Assembly: GCA_002393895.1 (NCBI GenBank)
Contig: DGUE01000117.1
Span: 1-8,746 of the forward strand
Reading direction: 5' to 3'
Source of the DNA: Bacteroidales bacterium UBA4318
GTDB lineage: Bacteria; Bacteroidota; Bacteroidia; Bacteroidales; UBA932
DNA length: 8,746 nt
The first letter of the stretch is position 1, and the number at the start of each line of letters is the position of its first letter. The notes below the pieces were generated by a model that did not search any database, had not been told where the DNA came from, and saw only the letters and a list, made by a program, of their open reading frames with translations. The position numbers and the translations under genes were made by a program. Below are positions 3,913 to 7,592 of this stretch, in pieces.

Positions 3913-4011
3913 TGGGAAAGGTCCAATTCCATGCCTGAGACCTTACCCGCATTTCTACCTCACACACACTTCCAGTGGGAATGGTCCCGGCCATAAAAGG
4001 GGACCTTTCCC
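3913..4011. repeat. 98-bp REP/BIME-like palindromic repeat, copy 1 (left flank of RAYT cassette)
   Basis: The core 3914-4011 is repeated at 5428-5525 in the same orientation and differs at one base (A at 3945, T at 5459); the shared T just before makes 99 bp. It begins GGGAAAGGTCC and ends GGACCTTTCCC, perfect 11-bp terminal inverted repeats. Hairpin A pairs 3914-3923 with 3939-3948 (15-nt loop, with an A-A mismatch in this copy). Hairpin B pairs 3977-3988 with 4000-4011 (12 bp with one T-T mismatch, 11-nt loop GGCCATAAAAG). The linker contains a CACACACAC run. On the minus strand a GTAG (3958-3955) lies 6 nt before hairpin A, recalling the tetranucleotide head of classical REPs. REP naming is inferred from the structure and from the adjacent RAYT-like gene. 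Confidence 0.9.
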
Positions 4012-4050
4012 GGAAATCAGTATATCGAAACTTAAAACATTTACCTTTTA

Positions 4051-4080
4051 ATTCACCATAAAATAAATCTTATGGTGCAT
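4051..4080. repeat. Inverted repeat upstream of the two-gene cassette
   Basis: CACCATAA (4054-4061) pairs perfectly with TTATGGTG (4070-4077) around an 8-nt AT-rich loop. With one mismatch the arms extend to 11 bp (4051-4061 and 4070-4080). The 9-mer TTAAAACAT occurs on both sides (4032-4040 and 4081-4089). This palindrome is unrelated in sequence to the 98-bp repeat. It could be an operator, a recognition hairpin for the transposase, or part of the cassette's end. It is not followed by a clear T-tract, so it is unlikely to be a terminator. Confidence 0.6.
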
Positions 4081-4138
4081 TTAAAACATACAATCGTCAG
4101 CAGAAACTTAAATTAAAAGAATTGTTTCCGCATAATTC

Positions 4139-4169
4139 TTGGCCTAATTACCGTATTCCTGTATTATTG
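4139..4169 (+). promoter_or_regulatory. Weak promoter candidate for the 104-aa gene and RAYT
   Basis: TTG at 4139-4141 and TATTATTG at 4162-4169 (seven of eight to TAnnTTTG) are 20 nt apart, the spacing expected for -33/-7 elements in Bacteroidota. The predicted transcript start would leave a leader of only about ten bases before ATG 4184. That leader consists mostly of a run of nine A (4172-4180), which would suit Shine-Dalgarno-free initiation. TACCTTTT at 4042-4049 is an alternative -7 box. Assignment is by pattern only. Confidence 0.3.
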
Positions 4170-4183
4170 CGAAAAAAAAAGTT

Positions 4184-4498
4184 ATGAAAAAGATCCTTGA
4201 AGTATTACAGTACGGTGAAATGGACATCCGCTTCAACACCGACATTGAGTCAGTCAAAAATCCTGAATCTATCCCAAATACAATATCCAGGTTGACTTTC
4301 GCCATGATGACAAAACTATGGGGTGGAAATGAACAAGATGTTTTGGCCATGGTCCGTGCGTTGGCAATAGCCGACCTTGCCTTGAGCACGAATAGAAAGG
4401 AAATAATTAAATACCTTGATGAGTCATCTAAAATGGTAGTGAGGACACTTGTCGAAGCAAAGAAACAGTTTGAGAGTCAGGGAGGTAAGTTGACATGA
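4184..4498 (+). CDS. Unrecognised 104-aa protein translationally coupled to the RAYT
   Basis: I do not recognise this protein family. The product is 104 aa, soluble, without cysteine, signal peptide or membrane segment. It begins MKKILEVLQYGEMDIRFN and is probably mostly helical from about residue 34 onward (SRLTFAMMTKLWGG, then QDVLAMVRALAIADLALS, then a Lys/Glu-rich C-terminal helix). Its stop overlaps the transposase start in ATGA (4495-4498), so the two genes are almost certainly co-transcribed and translationally coupled. Both lie between the two 98-bp repeats, which suggests that this gene travels with the transposase as an accessory, regulatory or assembly partner; that is inference. 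The start is preceded by an A9 run and no Shine-Dalgarno site. Base composition is A+T-richer than in rel or uvrB, like the transposase. The frame is real by coupling, composition and length; the function is unknown. Confidence 0.75.
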   Translation: MKKILEVLQYGEMDIRFNTDIESVKNPESIPNTISRLTFAMMTKLWGGNEQDVLAMVRALAIADLALSTNRKEIIKYLDESSKMVVRTLVEAKKQFESQGGKLT

Positions 4499-5424
4499 AA
4501 AGGGTTGTCCAAAGGATGATGCCGAACGGACAAATAATGTATGTTTGGCCGTTTCATATCAGTCTTGAGGGTTTGGAAACCGCGGTATTGTGCAGGGATG
4601 AGGATGATTATGACTCTATGGTGAAGATAATATGTGTATGCGCAAAAAGAAAGAATGTCATAATCGTGATTTATGCCGTGGTTTCCAATCATTGCCATAT
4701 TGCCGTCCTGGCCGCAAGCCAGGGAGCAGCGGACAACTATGGGCAAGAAGTGAAAAGGATGTTCTCGATGTGGTTGAATCGGAAATACGGCGCAAAGGAA
4801 ACTATGCGTAATGTGGATGTCAAAGCCATCCTTCTGGATAATGATTGGTATGTTCGCAATGCACTTGCATATATACCTCGCAACGCTTTGGACAATGGTT
4901 GCAATGTAAATGAATACAGGTGGTCTGGTTATCGGGCAATGTTCAACATGGATCATTCAGACGGGGTAATAAAGGTGGCATCGCTGTCTAAGAGGGAGAA
5001 ACTGGCTGTAATGCATACAGGAGACGCCTTGTTTGATGTTCCCTGGTTGCTAGACAAAAAATGGCAACTGGTGCCCTCGAGTTTTTGCGATCACTTGTAT
5101 TTGGAACAGGCTTTCGAGAATGATCAGACATATTTTATAAAAACCATAGGGATCCAGAACTCGGCCGAAATGGAGAACAAACTGGTCAGCCAACCCAGAA
5201 GGATGATGCCGGATACCGAATTTTTTAAATTTGTCAACGATATAAGTAACCGCTGGTTTAAAGATGATGTTCCCAACTTGTCTCTGGAAAATAAAATCAA
5301 ATTGCTGCCATTCATCAATCGTACGACAAAGACTACCGTTCCTCAATTGGCGAGGGTATTTGGACTGGGGAGGGAGCAAATTACCCAAATAATAAGCCCA
5401 CGGACAAAGCAAAACAAACGATGA
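4495..5424 (+). CDS. REP-associated tyrosine transposase (RAYT)-like Y1/HUH protein
   Basis: This 309-aa protein belongs to the IS200-like Y1 transposase superfamily, single-strand-specific DNA nicking and joining enzymes. The N-terminal half fits the fold: YVWPFHISLEG (16-26), the strand YAVVSNHCHIAVLA (60-73) with metal-binding H66-C67-H68 (the His-hydrophobic-His position holding Cys), then YIPRNALDNG (126-135) and YRWSGYRAMF (141-150), equivalent to the YIxxNPvrAG and WSSY motifs of RAYTs. The likely nucleophile is Y126, with Y119 as an alternative. Residues about 160-260 are unassigned. A helix-turn-helix-like segment follows at 281-300 (TVPQLARVFGLGREQITQII), like the DNA-binding tails of some longer RAYTs. 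The gene is bracketed by near-identical palindromic repeats and its stop lies 3 nt before copy 2. It is therefore more probably a domesticated REP-associated enzyme than a free insertion sequence; that part is inference. Confidence 0.85.
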   Translation: MKRVVQRMMPNGQIMYVWPFHISLEGLETAVLCRDEDDYDSMVKIICVCAKRKNVIIVIYAVVSNHCHIAVLAASQGAADNYGQEVKRMFSMWLNRKYGAKETMRNVDVKAILLDNDWYVRNALAYIPRNALDNGCNVNEYRWSGYRAMFNMDHSDGVIKVASLSKREKLAVMHTGDALFDVPWLLDKKWQLVPSSFCDHLYLEQAFENDQTYFIKTIGIQNSAEMENKLVSQPRRMMPDTEFFKFVNDISNRWFKDDVPNLSLENKIKLLPFINRTTKTTVPQLARVFGLGREQITQIISPRTKQNKR

Positions 5425-5426
5425 AA

Positions 5427-5525
5427 TGGGAAAGGTCCAATTCCATGCCTGAGACCTTTCCCGCATTTCTACCTCACACACACTTCCAGTGGGAATGGTC
5501 CCGGCCATAAAAGGGGACCTTTCCC
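5427..5525. repeat. 98-bp REP/BIME-like palindromic repeat, copy 2 (right flank of RAYT cassette)
   Basis: This is the second copy (core 5428-5525), in the same orientation as 3914-4011, 97 of 98 bases identical. Hairpin A is perfect here: 10 bp, 5428-5437 with 5453-5462. Hairpin B pairs 5491-5502 with 5514-5525 with one T-T mismatch. The repeat fills almost all the space between the convergent stops of the transposase gene (5424) and the oxidoreductase gene (5533). No other terminator is visible there, so its hairpins may also stop or stabilise both transcripts; that is inference. Confidence 0.9.
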
Positions 5526-5532
5526 AAAAGAA

Positions 5533-6543
5533 TCAGTATGCCAGGCTGTCCAGCAGGGAATAGGTGTTGCGGAGGGATTCCAGTTCGGAAAGGGCGTCGG
5601 CTTTTCTGCCTTCCACCCTTGACGCGAAGTCGCGGATTTCGTCGAAGAACCCCTGGGTATACACCTGATTCTGATTCAGGATAGGGGAGAAACTGTTCTG
5701 CTCGAACAGAACGCGCGTTCCGCCTTTCCCCAGACCGGCCTTTTCGAGAGGGATGCCGGCAATCACCGCAGGTTTCAGGGACAATGTCAGGCGCTCCAAC
5801 TTGTCGAGCCGATAAAGCCCGGTTCCAGTATTGATGCTTAGATTCTCTCTGGCATCAGCCCAACTGTAATCGGTGGACAGTTCCAGGGTGCCGCAAATGT
5901 CTTTGTGCCTGAGCATCAGCAGGTATGAATCCGGAGAAGTTTTTTCGAAGGCAGCGATTCCGGCCTTGCCGAAAAGGTGGCAGACAAGGTCAAGAGGATG
6001 GATATAAAGGTCTGTCAGGGCATTTCCTTCGGGATATGCCCCGGTGCAGTAATGCAGGTCGTAGCTTATGAGTTTTTCTCCGGACAGTTTCTTCTTGAGT
6101 ATCTTGACTGCCGGGGAATAGCGTTTCTGCAAGCCGGCGGTCGCGATGCCTTTTTTCATCCCGATAAGGACTTCGAGTTCCCGGGAATTCCGCACCGGAG
6201 GCTTCTCCACGAAAAGTGACTTCCCGCTTTGCAGCACCTTCTGGGCAATGCTGAAATGGGCTTCGGGGCTGGCCGCGACGAACACTCCCTTCACTTCAGG
6301 ATCGGCGAGGACCGCGTCCAGGTCGGTGGTGCCCGTGACACCCGGGAACTTTTTCCCTATCAGTTCCGCTTTTCCTGCCGAGGTCACACAGATATACTTC
6401 AGAGGCAGTTGAAGATAATGGATAACAGGGTAGAGATTGCTGAGGCTGTGCTGGCCGAGGCCTACGAACGCATACTTGCCCTCGTAGGTTTCCTTCAGAT
6501 ACTTTTCGGAACGGATACGTTTGTAGGTGTCGATGATGCTCAT
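5533..6543 (-). CDS. Gfo/Idh/MocA-family NAD(P)-dependent oxidoreductase
   Basis: The protein has 336 aa, the usual length of the family. An N-terminal Rossmann domain starts after a short extension (AFVGLGQHSLSNLYPVI, 25-41). VKGVFVAASPEAHFSIA (84-100) and the hallmark EKPP at 113-116 follow. QKRYSPAVKIL (139-149) and DLYIHPLDLVCHLFG (178-192) come next; the Asp and His there occupy the usual catalytic region of the C-terminal alpha/beta domain. Family members oxidise or reduce sugars, cyclitols or sugar nucleotides with NAD(P); the substrate here is unknown. The ATG overlaps the radical SAM stop by 4 nt (6540-6543), so the two enzymes are translationally coupled and probably act in one pathway. 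The stop lies 7 nt from repeat copy 2. No signal peptide is seen, so the enzyme is cytosolic. Confidence 0.9.
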   Translation of the reverse strand: MSIIDTYKRIRSEKYLKETYEGKYAFVGLGQHSLSNLYPVIHYLQLPLKYICVTSAGKAELIGKKFPGVTGTTDLDAVLADPEVKGVFVAASPEAHFSIAQKVLQSGKSLFVEKPPVRNSRELEVLIGMKKGIATAGLQKRYSPAVKILKKKLSGEKLISYDLHYCTGAYPEGNALTDLYIHPLDLVCHLFGKAGIAAFEKTSPDSYLLMLRHKDICGTLELSTDYSWADARENLSINTGTGLYRLDKLERLTLSLKPAVIAGIPLEKAGLGKGGTRVLFEQNSFSPILNQNQVYTQGFFDEIRDFASRVEGRKADALSELESLRNTYSLLDSLAY

Positions 6544-7592
6544 TTGCTGAAATACTTTTTATACGTTATCCGGTGGTCGGAGGTCCATTGGTATGGCCCG
6601 TAGATCCATTCAATTACTGGTTTTGGCAGGAACTTCTCGAAATTCCTGAGGAGTATAATGTCGTATTTGCGGTGGAAGTTGATCCAGCAGCCGTTGCAGT
6701 TGCGCTCGTATTCGCACTGAAGCCTGTGAGCCGCCTTGCCGTTGAATATCTCATCCAGAGTGTTCTCCCGTATATTGCCAAGATTCACTCCGAGGTTCTG
6801 GCAGACAGGGACATCTCCGTTGCTATGTATCACCAGACTGCTGAAAATGCTCTGGCAACGGAGTTTGAGCCTTCCCTTTCGCCACTCGTCATAGAGGGCG
6901 ACAAAGTCGAAGTTCTCTTCCGTTTCGTGTATGCTAGCGGGAATTCCGGCCTGGAAACCCTCGACATTAATCAGGTCTGCCTTTGTGTCGAAGAAATCCA
7001 TGGTGCCATAAATGCCGATGCGCACGTCTATGCCATATTTTTTGGCCACATCGATCACATAGGCCATATCCGAGAAGGAATTCCATGGCGTCAGGCAGAA
7101 CATCAGCGAGATTGGTATCTCGTCTTTGAGGGTTTCAATGAGTTCTATTACGCTGTCGTGGGCATCTACACCGCGCACTTCAGGATAAGTCTTCTTGTCT
7201 CCATCCAGAGAAATGTAAAGACGCACCGGCTTATACTGCCTCACGGCATCTACCACTTTGGGAACTGCGATTCCGTTGCTCAGGAGGGTATAGTAAGGAT
7301 GATTGTCCCTCAGCCATTCCATTATTTCCCTGTACTGGGGATGGAGCACGAACTCGCCCCCTTCCAGCCCTACTACCGTCCTGCGCGTTACGCATCTGCT
7401 CCCAACTATTGCTTTGATCTCCTCAAGGCTTAGACTCTCGCGGGGTTTTTGCCAGATTGAGCAGTGCCTGCACCTGGACTGGCAAATCGTGGTTGCGTAT
7501 ATCATCAACTGGCTCAGCTTTTTGTGCCGGGGCCGAACCATATTGTTGACAAACAGTAATCCGTTATGGATGTAATCTCCTAACTTGTACAT
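6540..7592 (-). CDS. Radical SAM protein with SPASM-like C-terminal cysteine region
   Basis: This is a 350-aa radical S-adenosylmethionine enzyme. The cluster motif C37-x3-C41-x2-C44 (CQSRCRHC) binds the [4Fe-4S] cluster that cleaves SAM. LEGGE (76-80) and YISLDGDKKTYPEVRG (126-141) are further core motifs. The C-terminal part holds C246, C264 (HSNGDVPVCQN), C293, C299 and C302 (CEYERNCNGC), with LGNIRENTLDEIF (271-283) between them. That is the SPASM/twitch pattern, implying one or more auxiliary clusters. SPASM enzymes modify peptides or proteins (PqqE, AlbA, sulfatase maturases) or small molecules (BtrN-type dehydrogenation). The coupled oxidoreductase favours a sugar or cyclitol route, while a possible 27-codon gene just upstream leaves a peptide route open. 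The start ATG at 7592 is preceded by an inverted repeat and no Shine-Dalgarno site. Superfamily is secure; substrate is not known. Confidence 0.93.
   Translation of the reverse strand: MYKLGDYIHNGLLFVNNMVRPRHKKLSQLMIYATTICQSRCRHCSIWQKPRESLSLEEIKAIVGSRCVTRRTVVGLEGGEFVLHPQYREIMEWLRDNHPYYTLLSNGIAVPKVVDAVRQYKPVRLYISLDGDKKTYPEVRGVDAHDSVIELIETLKDEIPISLMFCLTPWNSFSDMAYVIDVAKKYGIDVRIGIYGTMDFFDTKADLINVEGFQAGIPASIHETEENFDFVALYDEWRKGRLKLRCQSIFSSLVIHSNGDVPVCQNLGVNLGNIRENTLDEIFNGKAAHRLQCEYERNCNGCWINFHRKYDIILLRNFEKFLPKPVIEWIYGPYQWTSDHRITYKKYFSK

Follow-up and report, generated by a model that had tools for sequence, protein, structure and literature searches.

The window analysed here, 8,746 nt of contig DGUE01000117.1 from Bacteroidales bacterium UBA4318 (GCA_002393895.1), contains a 1.6-kb cassette in which two nearly identical 98-bp elements bracket a small open reading frame, ORF1, and the gene of a long REP-associated tyrosine transposase (RAYT; REP, repetitive extragenic palindrome). 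The cassette is very likely a REPtron-like system of a long-RAYT subfamily. Its anatomy is seen in the window and in related loci; the relatives moreover display transposase-free dispersal of the elements, co-occurrence of elements and RAYT, co-divergence of stem and RAYT sequences, synteny of the locus and homogeneity of the elements within a locus.

Anatomy of the cassette and its elements

A repeat search of the window yielded one family with two 99-nt copies (3913–4011 and 5427–5525), 98/99 identical, direct and 1514 nt apart. The element proper measures 98 nt (3914–4011 and 5428–5525), and its copies agree at 97 of 98 positions in the same orientation, as the initial annotation had stated; the single A/T difference lies in the 3' arm of hairpin 1. 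Alignment across the element boundary extends over 113 nt with 95.6% identity. Since the runner-up direct repeat within the window comprises only 40 nt at 73%, a chance repeat can be dismissed. Each copy is composed of two 35-nt hairpins (10-bp stem, 15-nt loop) with starts 63 nt apart: upstream, hairpin 1 (3914–3948) and hairpin 2 (3977–4011) are joined by a 28-nt linker, and downstream the linker connects hairpins at 5428–5462 and 5491–5525. Folded as single-stranded DNA (ssDNA), the downstream copy reaches −21.8 kcal/mol (shuffle mean −11.9) and its other strand −21.2 kcal/mol (shuffle mean −12.8), with 0 of 200 shuffles as low in either case. Covariance model R1, trained on 98- and 108–110-nt elements including both window copies, matches the upstream copy with 71.9 bits (E 4.1e-15) and the downstream copy with 75.4 bits (E 5.3e-16). 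Each bracketing copy is an element resembling a REPIN (REP doublet forming hairpins) or BIME (bacterial interspersed mosaic element).

The elements enclose, on the plus strand, ORF1 (4184–4498, 104 aa) and the RAYT (4495–5424, 309 aa), in line with the small gene and RAYT-like transposase of the initial annotation. The two reading frames share 4 nt, and three bases separate the RAYT stop codon from the downstream element. Motif residues, a Pfam match below the cut-off and the predicted fold identify the RAYT as an HUH/Y1 transposase, an enzyme type that cuts ssDNA. His66, His68 and Tyr126 are invariant among 61 aligned sequences and, by analogy, would be catalytic; the HuH-Y distance is 58–60 residues and the tyrosine motif reads YIPRNA. 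Each of the 29 sequences in RAYT alignment A1 matches Pfam Y1_Tnp with an E-value of 0.1 or lower. The fold prediction most resembles E. coli TnpAREP, with 4er8 as best structural match and IS608 less near, while the added C-terminal part is predicted to be mostly helical and to end in a probable helix-turn-helix (HTH). Within the sampled set the subfamily was seen almost only in Bacteroidales; one RAYT (L074), from a metagenome-assembled genome (MAG) labelled Fibrobacter, groups with that of L057, which reflects mis-binning or transfer, and the rest of the set is Bacteroidota.

For element anatomy 81 loci were used, namely 80 related loci (L001–L080) and the window. ORF1 gave no Pfam or NCBIfam match and is without the approximately 14 C-terminal residues present in 117-aa relatives, and its profile matches upstream of the RAYT in 46 of the 81 loci, window included. 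It is probably an accessory, dispensable partner of the transposase. In a third transposase family bearing ORF1, support for a Y1 assignment is weak. Among the 35 ORF1-less loci, 13 carry the RAYT directly downstream of a DprA-like gene, a conserved pairing (L030, L032, L036, L047, L050, L052, L058, L068–L072 and L076). These genes are 54–60% identical to that of L058, except L050 (95%), and Pfam DNA_processg_A was confirmed in both that were tested (L058, L071); dprA, a recombination-mediator gene, ahead of sister-group RAYTs hints where such enzymes may act. Some cassettes of ORF1 relatives lie beside repetitive stretches of their own (L190:2540–3150, L186:3960–4310, L189:1640–2080, with repeated peptides in the open reading frame lists), apparently different repeat families.

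Elements occur in discrete lengths. With spacings of 40–160 nt allowed, hairpin pairs with at least 9 of 10 stem pairs were found in the 81 loci at 63, 73, 74 and 75 nt only (73 pairs); a second scan with other criteria, allowing 55–84 nt, added a spacing of 84 in three further loci and gave no match in 885 kb of shuffled loci. Of the 133 full-length matches near the 81 cassettes, 129 measure 97–98 or 108–111 nt, in a set without partial or 35-nt matches (which occur in L010, L020, L034, L040, L061, L064, L068 and L072). With R1 a 119-nt class emerged unprompted in one family, where the 84 distinct listed places, weaker ones not being in the list, have lengths of 97–98 (20), 109–111 (27) and 119 nt (37) and no other. 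Steps of about 10.5 bp correspond to whole helical turns, and the length classes may reflect helical phasing. The switch between spacings of 63 and 73–76 needs at least five changes on the RAYT tree, which comes from a rapid search and whose deep forks have weak support.

The elements counted for stem pairing were picked for paired stems, and covariation is partly built into the values of 96.3% of cells paired (83.3% shuffled) and both-sided changes at 12 of 20 stem pairs. Less affected is the loop test, in which the outer loop halves of the two hairpins pair at 73.8% (59.5% shuffled, 0 of 500 as high) and the inner halves do not exceed chance. Given this pairing of the outer halves, the element can alternatively fold into a single long hairpin, like a REPIN. 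In L001–L080, a TTTTG/CAAAA foot is found at both outer ends of 74/75-spaced elements, strong in 74, weaker in 75 and absent in 63, which could be a guide or target-site sequence.

Dispersal of the elements and association with the RAYT

Dispersal was surveyed in 39 genomes of relatives carrying this RAYT subfamily. Perfect GGGCAAGGTC hairpins are present in 22 of them, the reversed pattern giving 0 matches, and the looser pattern AAGGTC-N15-GACCTT gives 210 matches in 34. R1 matches all 39, in part by construction, with 661 strand matches corresponding to about 330 elements, because elements match on both strands. Per genome, the median is about 7–8 and the largest number about 27 (98 candidates were scored per genome here, 19 in the family survey below). 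Since R1 was trained on cassette-side elements, one to two elements per genome are expected by construction; the remainder is not. Of 126 elements, about 60% are located largely outside crude open reading frames, compared with 10% of random places. In genome G007, four further loci match the element that follows the RAYT, with 90–93% identity over 100–102 nt, blocks of 300–450 nt containing several elements also recur, and a RAYT is present in only 1 of 17 element regions, namely its own. In the relatives, two-hairpin units are thus dispersed between genes without a transposase, as REPINs are. On contigs C26, C62, C63 and C91 of G007, several ends lie 18–85 nt past a hairpin or element; contigs ending just past elements suggest that short-read MAGs probably undercount copies.

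Presence of the elements follows the RAYT. In one family of 199 genomes, elements were found in 15 of the 18 that have a close RAYT and in 11 of the remaining 181 (Fisher p 3.9e-13), the cut of 350 bits having been chosen after the scores were seen; with G079 (214 bits) added to the close group the counts are 15/19 and 11/180. Eight of the 11 element-bearing genomes outside the close group carry a weaker or fragmentary RAYT match. Moreover, across the 73 loci in which an element lies no more than 1,000 nt away, divergence of the stems follows that of the RAYT (Mantel r 0.44, 0 of 1000). Of the 81 loci, 75 have enough flank beside the RAYT; in these, hairpin elements lie upstream in 55 and downstream in 40, with 26 loci having both and 6 neither, and for many the distance to the RAYT stop is at most 30 nt. 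Co-occurrence and co-divergence at the sequence level would be compatible with mobilisation of the elements by the RAYT. In the relatives, the REP system proposed in the initial annotation is supported.

Residence of the cassette and evolution of its bracketing copies

The window contains, according to Pfam, a partial MltG/YceG gene, a RelA/SpoT-type gene, an SDR gene, the cassette and, on the opposite strand, a Gfo/Idh-like gene (5533–6543), a radical-SAM gene and a UvrB fragment. A possible ORF1 promoter (TTGGCC ... TATTAT, 4139–4167, plus strand) matches the consensus weakly, 3 promoter-like sites having been found and 3.7 being expected by chance. Uncultured Bacteroidales represented by MAGs are the closest relatives found; their titles place most of them in the rumen or another ruminant stomach, and the host probably belongs among them. 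L007 displays MltG, RelA (90%), SDR (95%), element, ORF1, RAYT, element and radical SAM; L011 displays SDR (cut by the contig end), ORF1, RAYT, element, radical SAM, Gfo/Idh and UvrB; and L054 displays SDR, element, ORF1, RAYT, element and UvrB, with RelA 76% and RAYT 53% identical to the window. The three RAYTs are 53–64% identical to that of the window. Because the same locus is found behind the SDR gene in all three, the cassette is old at its present place. Compared with L011, the radical-SAM/Gfo-Idh pair of the window (5533–7592) has the opposite orientation, as does the radical-SAM gene compared with L007; the inverted pair starts directly at the downstream element, suggesting that elements may mark rearrangement ends.

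Pair identities were compared for 63 elements near cassettes at 27 loci. Direct pairs within a locus reach 0.99 in the window, 1.00 in L054 and L013, 0.99 in L062 and 0.97 in L022, and the inverted pair of L002 reaches 0.94. Between loci the median is 0.60 and the maximum 0.91; window and L054 elements, from the same locus, are 0.59 identical, window and L007 elements 0.71–0.74. Pairs of 0.97 or more in four other assemblies make an assembly artefact unlikely. The initial annotation, whose interpretation is supported in part, had attributed near-identity to recent generation or active maintenance. Near-identity here reflects homogenised repeats and not a recent arrival of the cassette; it points to gene conversion or local re-insertion. 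The 9-nt flank AATCAGTAT of the upstream element (4015–4023) recurs at the downstream element (5531–5539), where positions 5533–5539 are the 3' end of the Gfo/Idh gene; this match suggests copying from downstream to upstream with some flank.

Interpretation and comparison with known systems

By analogy with E. coli TnpAREP, a resident low-copy HUH/Y1 transposase would recognise the element hairpins as ssDNA and, possibly with ORF1 as accessory partner, copy the 98–119-bp double-hairpin elements in trans into further sites, mainly between genes. The two bracketing elements would be members of this dispersed population, kept near-identical in some lineages, window included, by local copying or gene conversion between the direct copies, and the cassette would be inherited vertically at a fixed place.

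A different combination of steps, possible but rather doubtful, is that the RAYT reads the element as double-stranded DNA through its HTH-like domain, perhaps with ORF1, both hairpin sites facing one side of the helix, and that the direct brackets serve as an in-place template pair, so that a lineage would replenish its elements from the transposase locus and homogenise them there. Reading on one helix face would explain the jumps of about 10.5 bp between element lengths (97–98, 108–111, 119). However, four of the 133 lengths are intermediate between classes, and the weak Y1 support in the third ORF1-bearing family also speaks against it.

That the cassette is a TIRtron, a RAYT-like (TIRYT) gene with terminal inverted repeats (TIRs) unrelated to REPs, is improbable. 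TIRYT/subclass 2.1 proteins are described as long with a C-terminal HTH, like the window RAYT (PMC6006769, PMC3733652), and some TIRs as moderately abundant families with self-complementary tracts. However, as far as these descriptions extend, TIRYT flanks are inverted, whereas 20 of 27 pairs here align better as direct repeats (orientations differ by less than 0.05 in L044, L068, L004 and L080), and many TIRYT flanks share GGGGWSAS, which the stems seen here do not fit; the flanks here are, moreover, two-hairpin elements of set length.

Even less credit is due to a conventional insertion sequence of the IS200/IS605 type, bounded by the two repeats and mobile as a whole of 1.6 kb. A Y1 transposase, direct repeats at both ends and the arrangement in L001, where the cassette lies beside the same neighbours in a different local order (radical-SAM/Gfo pair upstream, no SDR match), would be compatible with it, but synteny largely refutes it, the window, L007, L011 and L054 sharing one locus despite their divergent RAYTs. 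The multicopy insertion sequence that the initial annotation had named as a counter-case did not appear in relatives: close RAYTs (about 350 bits or more) number 1–2 in each of the 18 genomes, rising to at most 6 once distant Y1 relatives are counted (E 1e-10, 199-genome family), and same-genome pairs are 47–59% identical, without a near-identical multicopy unit. Elements also occur without genes, and the fold is nearer to TnpAREP than to IS608. Equally implausible is a structural or regulatory role of the hairpins (as terminators or mRNA stabilisers) with the RAYT as a mere neighbour, for which the preference for places outside reading frames and the many elements close to the RAYT stop would speak, but no T-run follows the window hairpins, a terminator scan of the window detected the SDR-gene terminator and neither element, and element presence and stem sequence track the RAYT.

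Several observations weigh against a REPtron-like system as set out above. The window RAYT scores below the cut-offs of Pfam Y1_Tnp (20.6 bits, cut-off 23) and NCBIfam NF047646 REP_Tyr_transpos (15.1 bits, cut-off 80). Profiles of 63-, 74- and 75-spaced elements (71 distinct; three 73-spaced ones unprofiled) contain no GTAG foot, and four elements have off-class lengths of 94, 105, 106 and 107 nt (L028, L050, L057 and L005). Evidence of dispersal comes from genomes of relatives alone; element copy numbers are low for REPs, the reversed form of the looser pattern yields 52 matches against 210, and 49 of 50 R1 training rows stem from loci of the kind searched. G043, G104 and G211 bear elements, strong ones in G104, with no RAYT found at E 1e-10, possibly owing to RAYT loss, incomplete assembly or another driver, and in three of the 18 close-RAYT genomes (G139, G072, G121) no element was found. 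Homogenisation is not general, the within-locus median being 0.80 (27 loci) and the L007 pair 0.68. The comparison of syntenic sites suggested in the initial annotation for locating junctions gave no clean empty/filled pair among 27 well-aligned pairs; the shortest gap (L033) contains a decayed remnant, and in two pairs the sites differ by the loss or gain of precisely one hairpin with its linker. In these, single 35-nt hairpins in L063 and L040 face full 109–110-nt elements in L065 (5442–5551; flanks 94–98% identical) and L037 (6906–7014), respectively. They resemble the REP singlets that have been attributed to REPIN decay (PMC8049555).

The main interest is carried by the unusual parts, namely length classes, partner gene and concerted brackets. 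To our knowledge, REP/RAYT biology rests on few proteobacterial systems with GTAG feet. The cassettes of uncultured gut Bacteroidales provide a second well-sampled architecture, with no GTAG, set lengths, a partner protein and concerted evolution at the transposase locus, and lend themselves naturally to comparison on two questions, how RAYTs recognise their elements and what makes bacteria retain them. Length classes and bracketing copies make concrete predictions testable in vitro.

With the E. coli TnpAREP REPtron (subclass 2.2, RAYT group 2) the system shares the HUH/Y1 fold, a low-copy gene flanked by inverted REP pairs and dispersed REP pairs without transposase. In contrast, the protein here has 309 aa compared with a class median given as 165 (PMC6006769) and a C-terminal helical, HTH-like part, there is a second gene, a GT[AG]G foot is missing, copies are few, and bracketing pairs are mostly direct and homogenised in some lineages. 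As described for P. fluorescens SBW25 REPINs, two inverted REPs and a spacer form one hairpin-forming unit of set size (PMC3116915), and singlets look like decay products; unlike there, the GTAG motif is absent, hairpins measure 35 nt, length classes lie about 10.5 bp apart, and genomes hold about 1–27 elements compared with a reported 430 doublets (PMC3116915). Subclass 2.6 (RAYT group 5), characterised as a Bacteroidetes class with atypical flanking structures, likewise combines a Bacteroidetes host, flanks without GT[AG]G and copies elsewhere in the genome, but is listed with a median of 179 aa, a HuH-Y distance of about 82 and YIH[QN]NP, compared with 309 aa, 58–60 and YIPRNA here (PMC6006769). 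Subclass 2.1 (TIRYT) resembles the RAYT in its long protein, C-terminal HTH-like part and similar HuH-Y distance, but is reported without REPs, whereas REPIN-like elements are present here (PMC6006769, PMC3733652). Given the mismatch with subclass 2.6 and the REP-less subclass 2.1, the cassette is read as a new form of REPtron.
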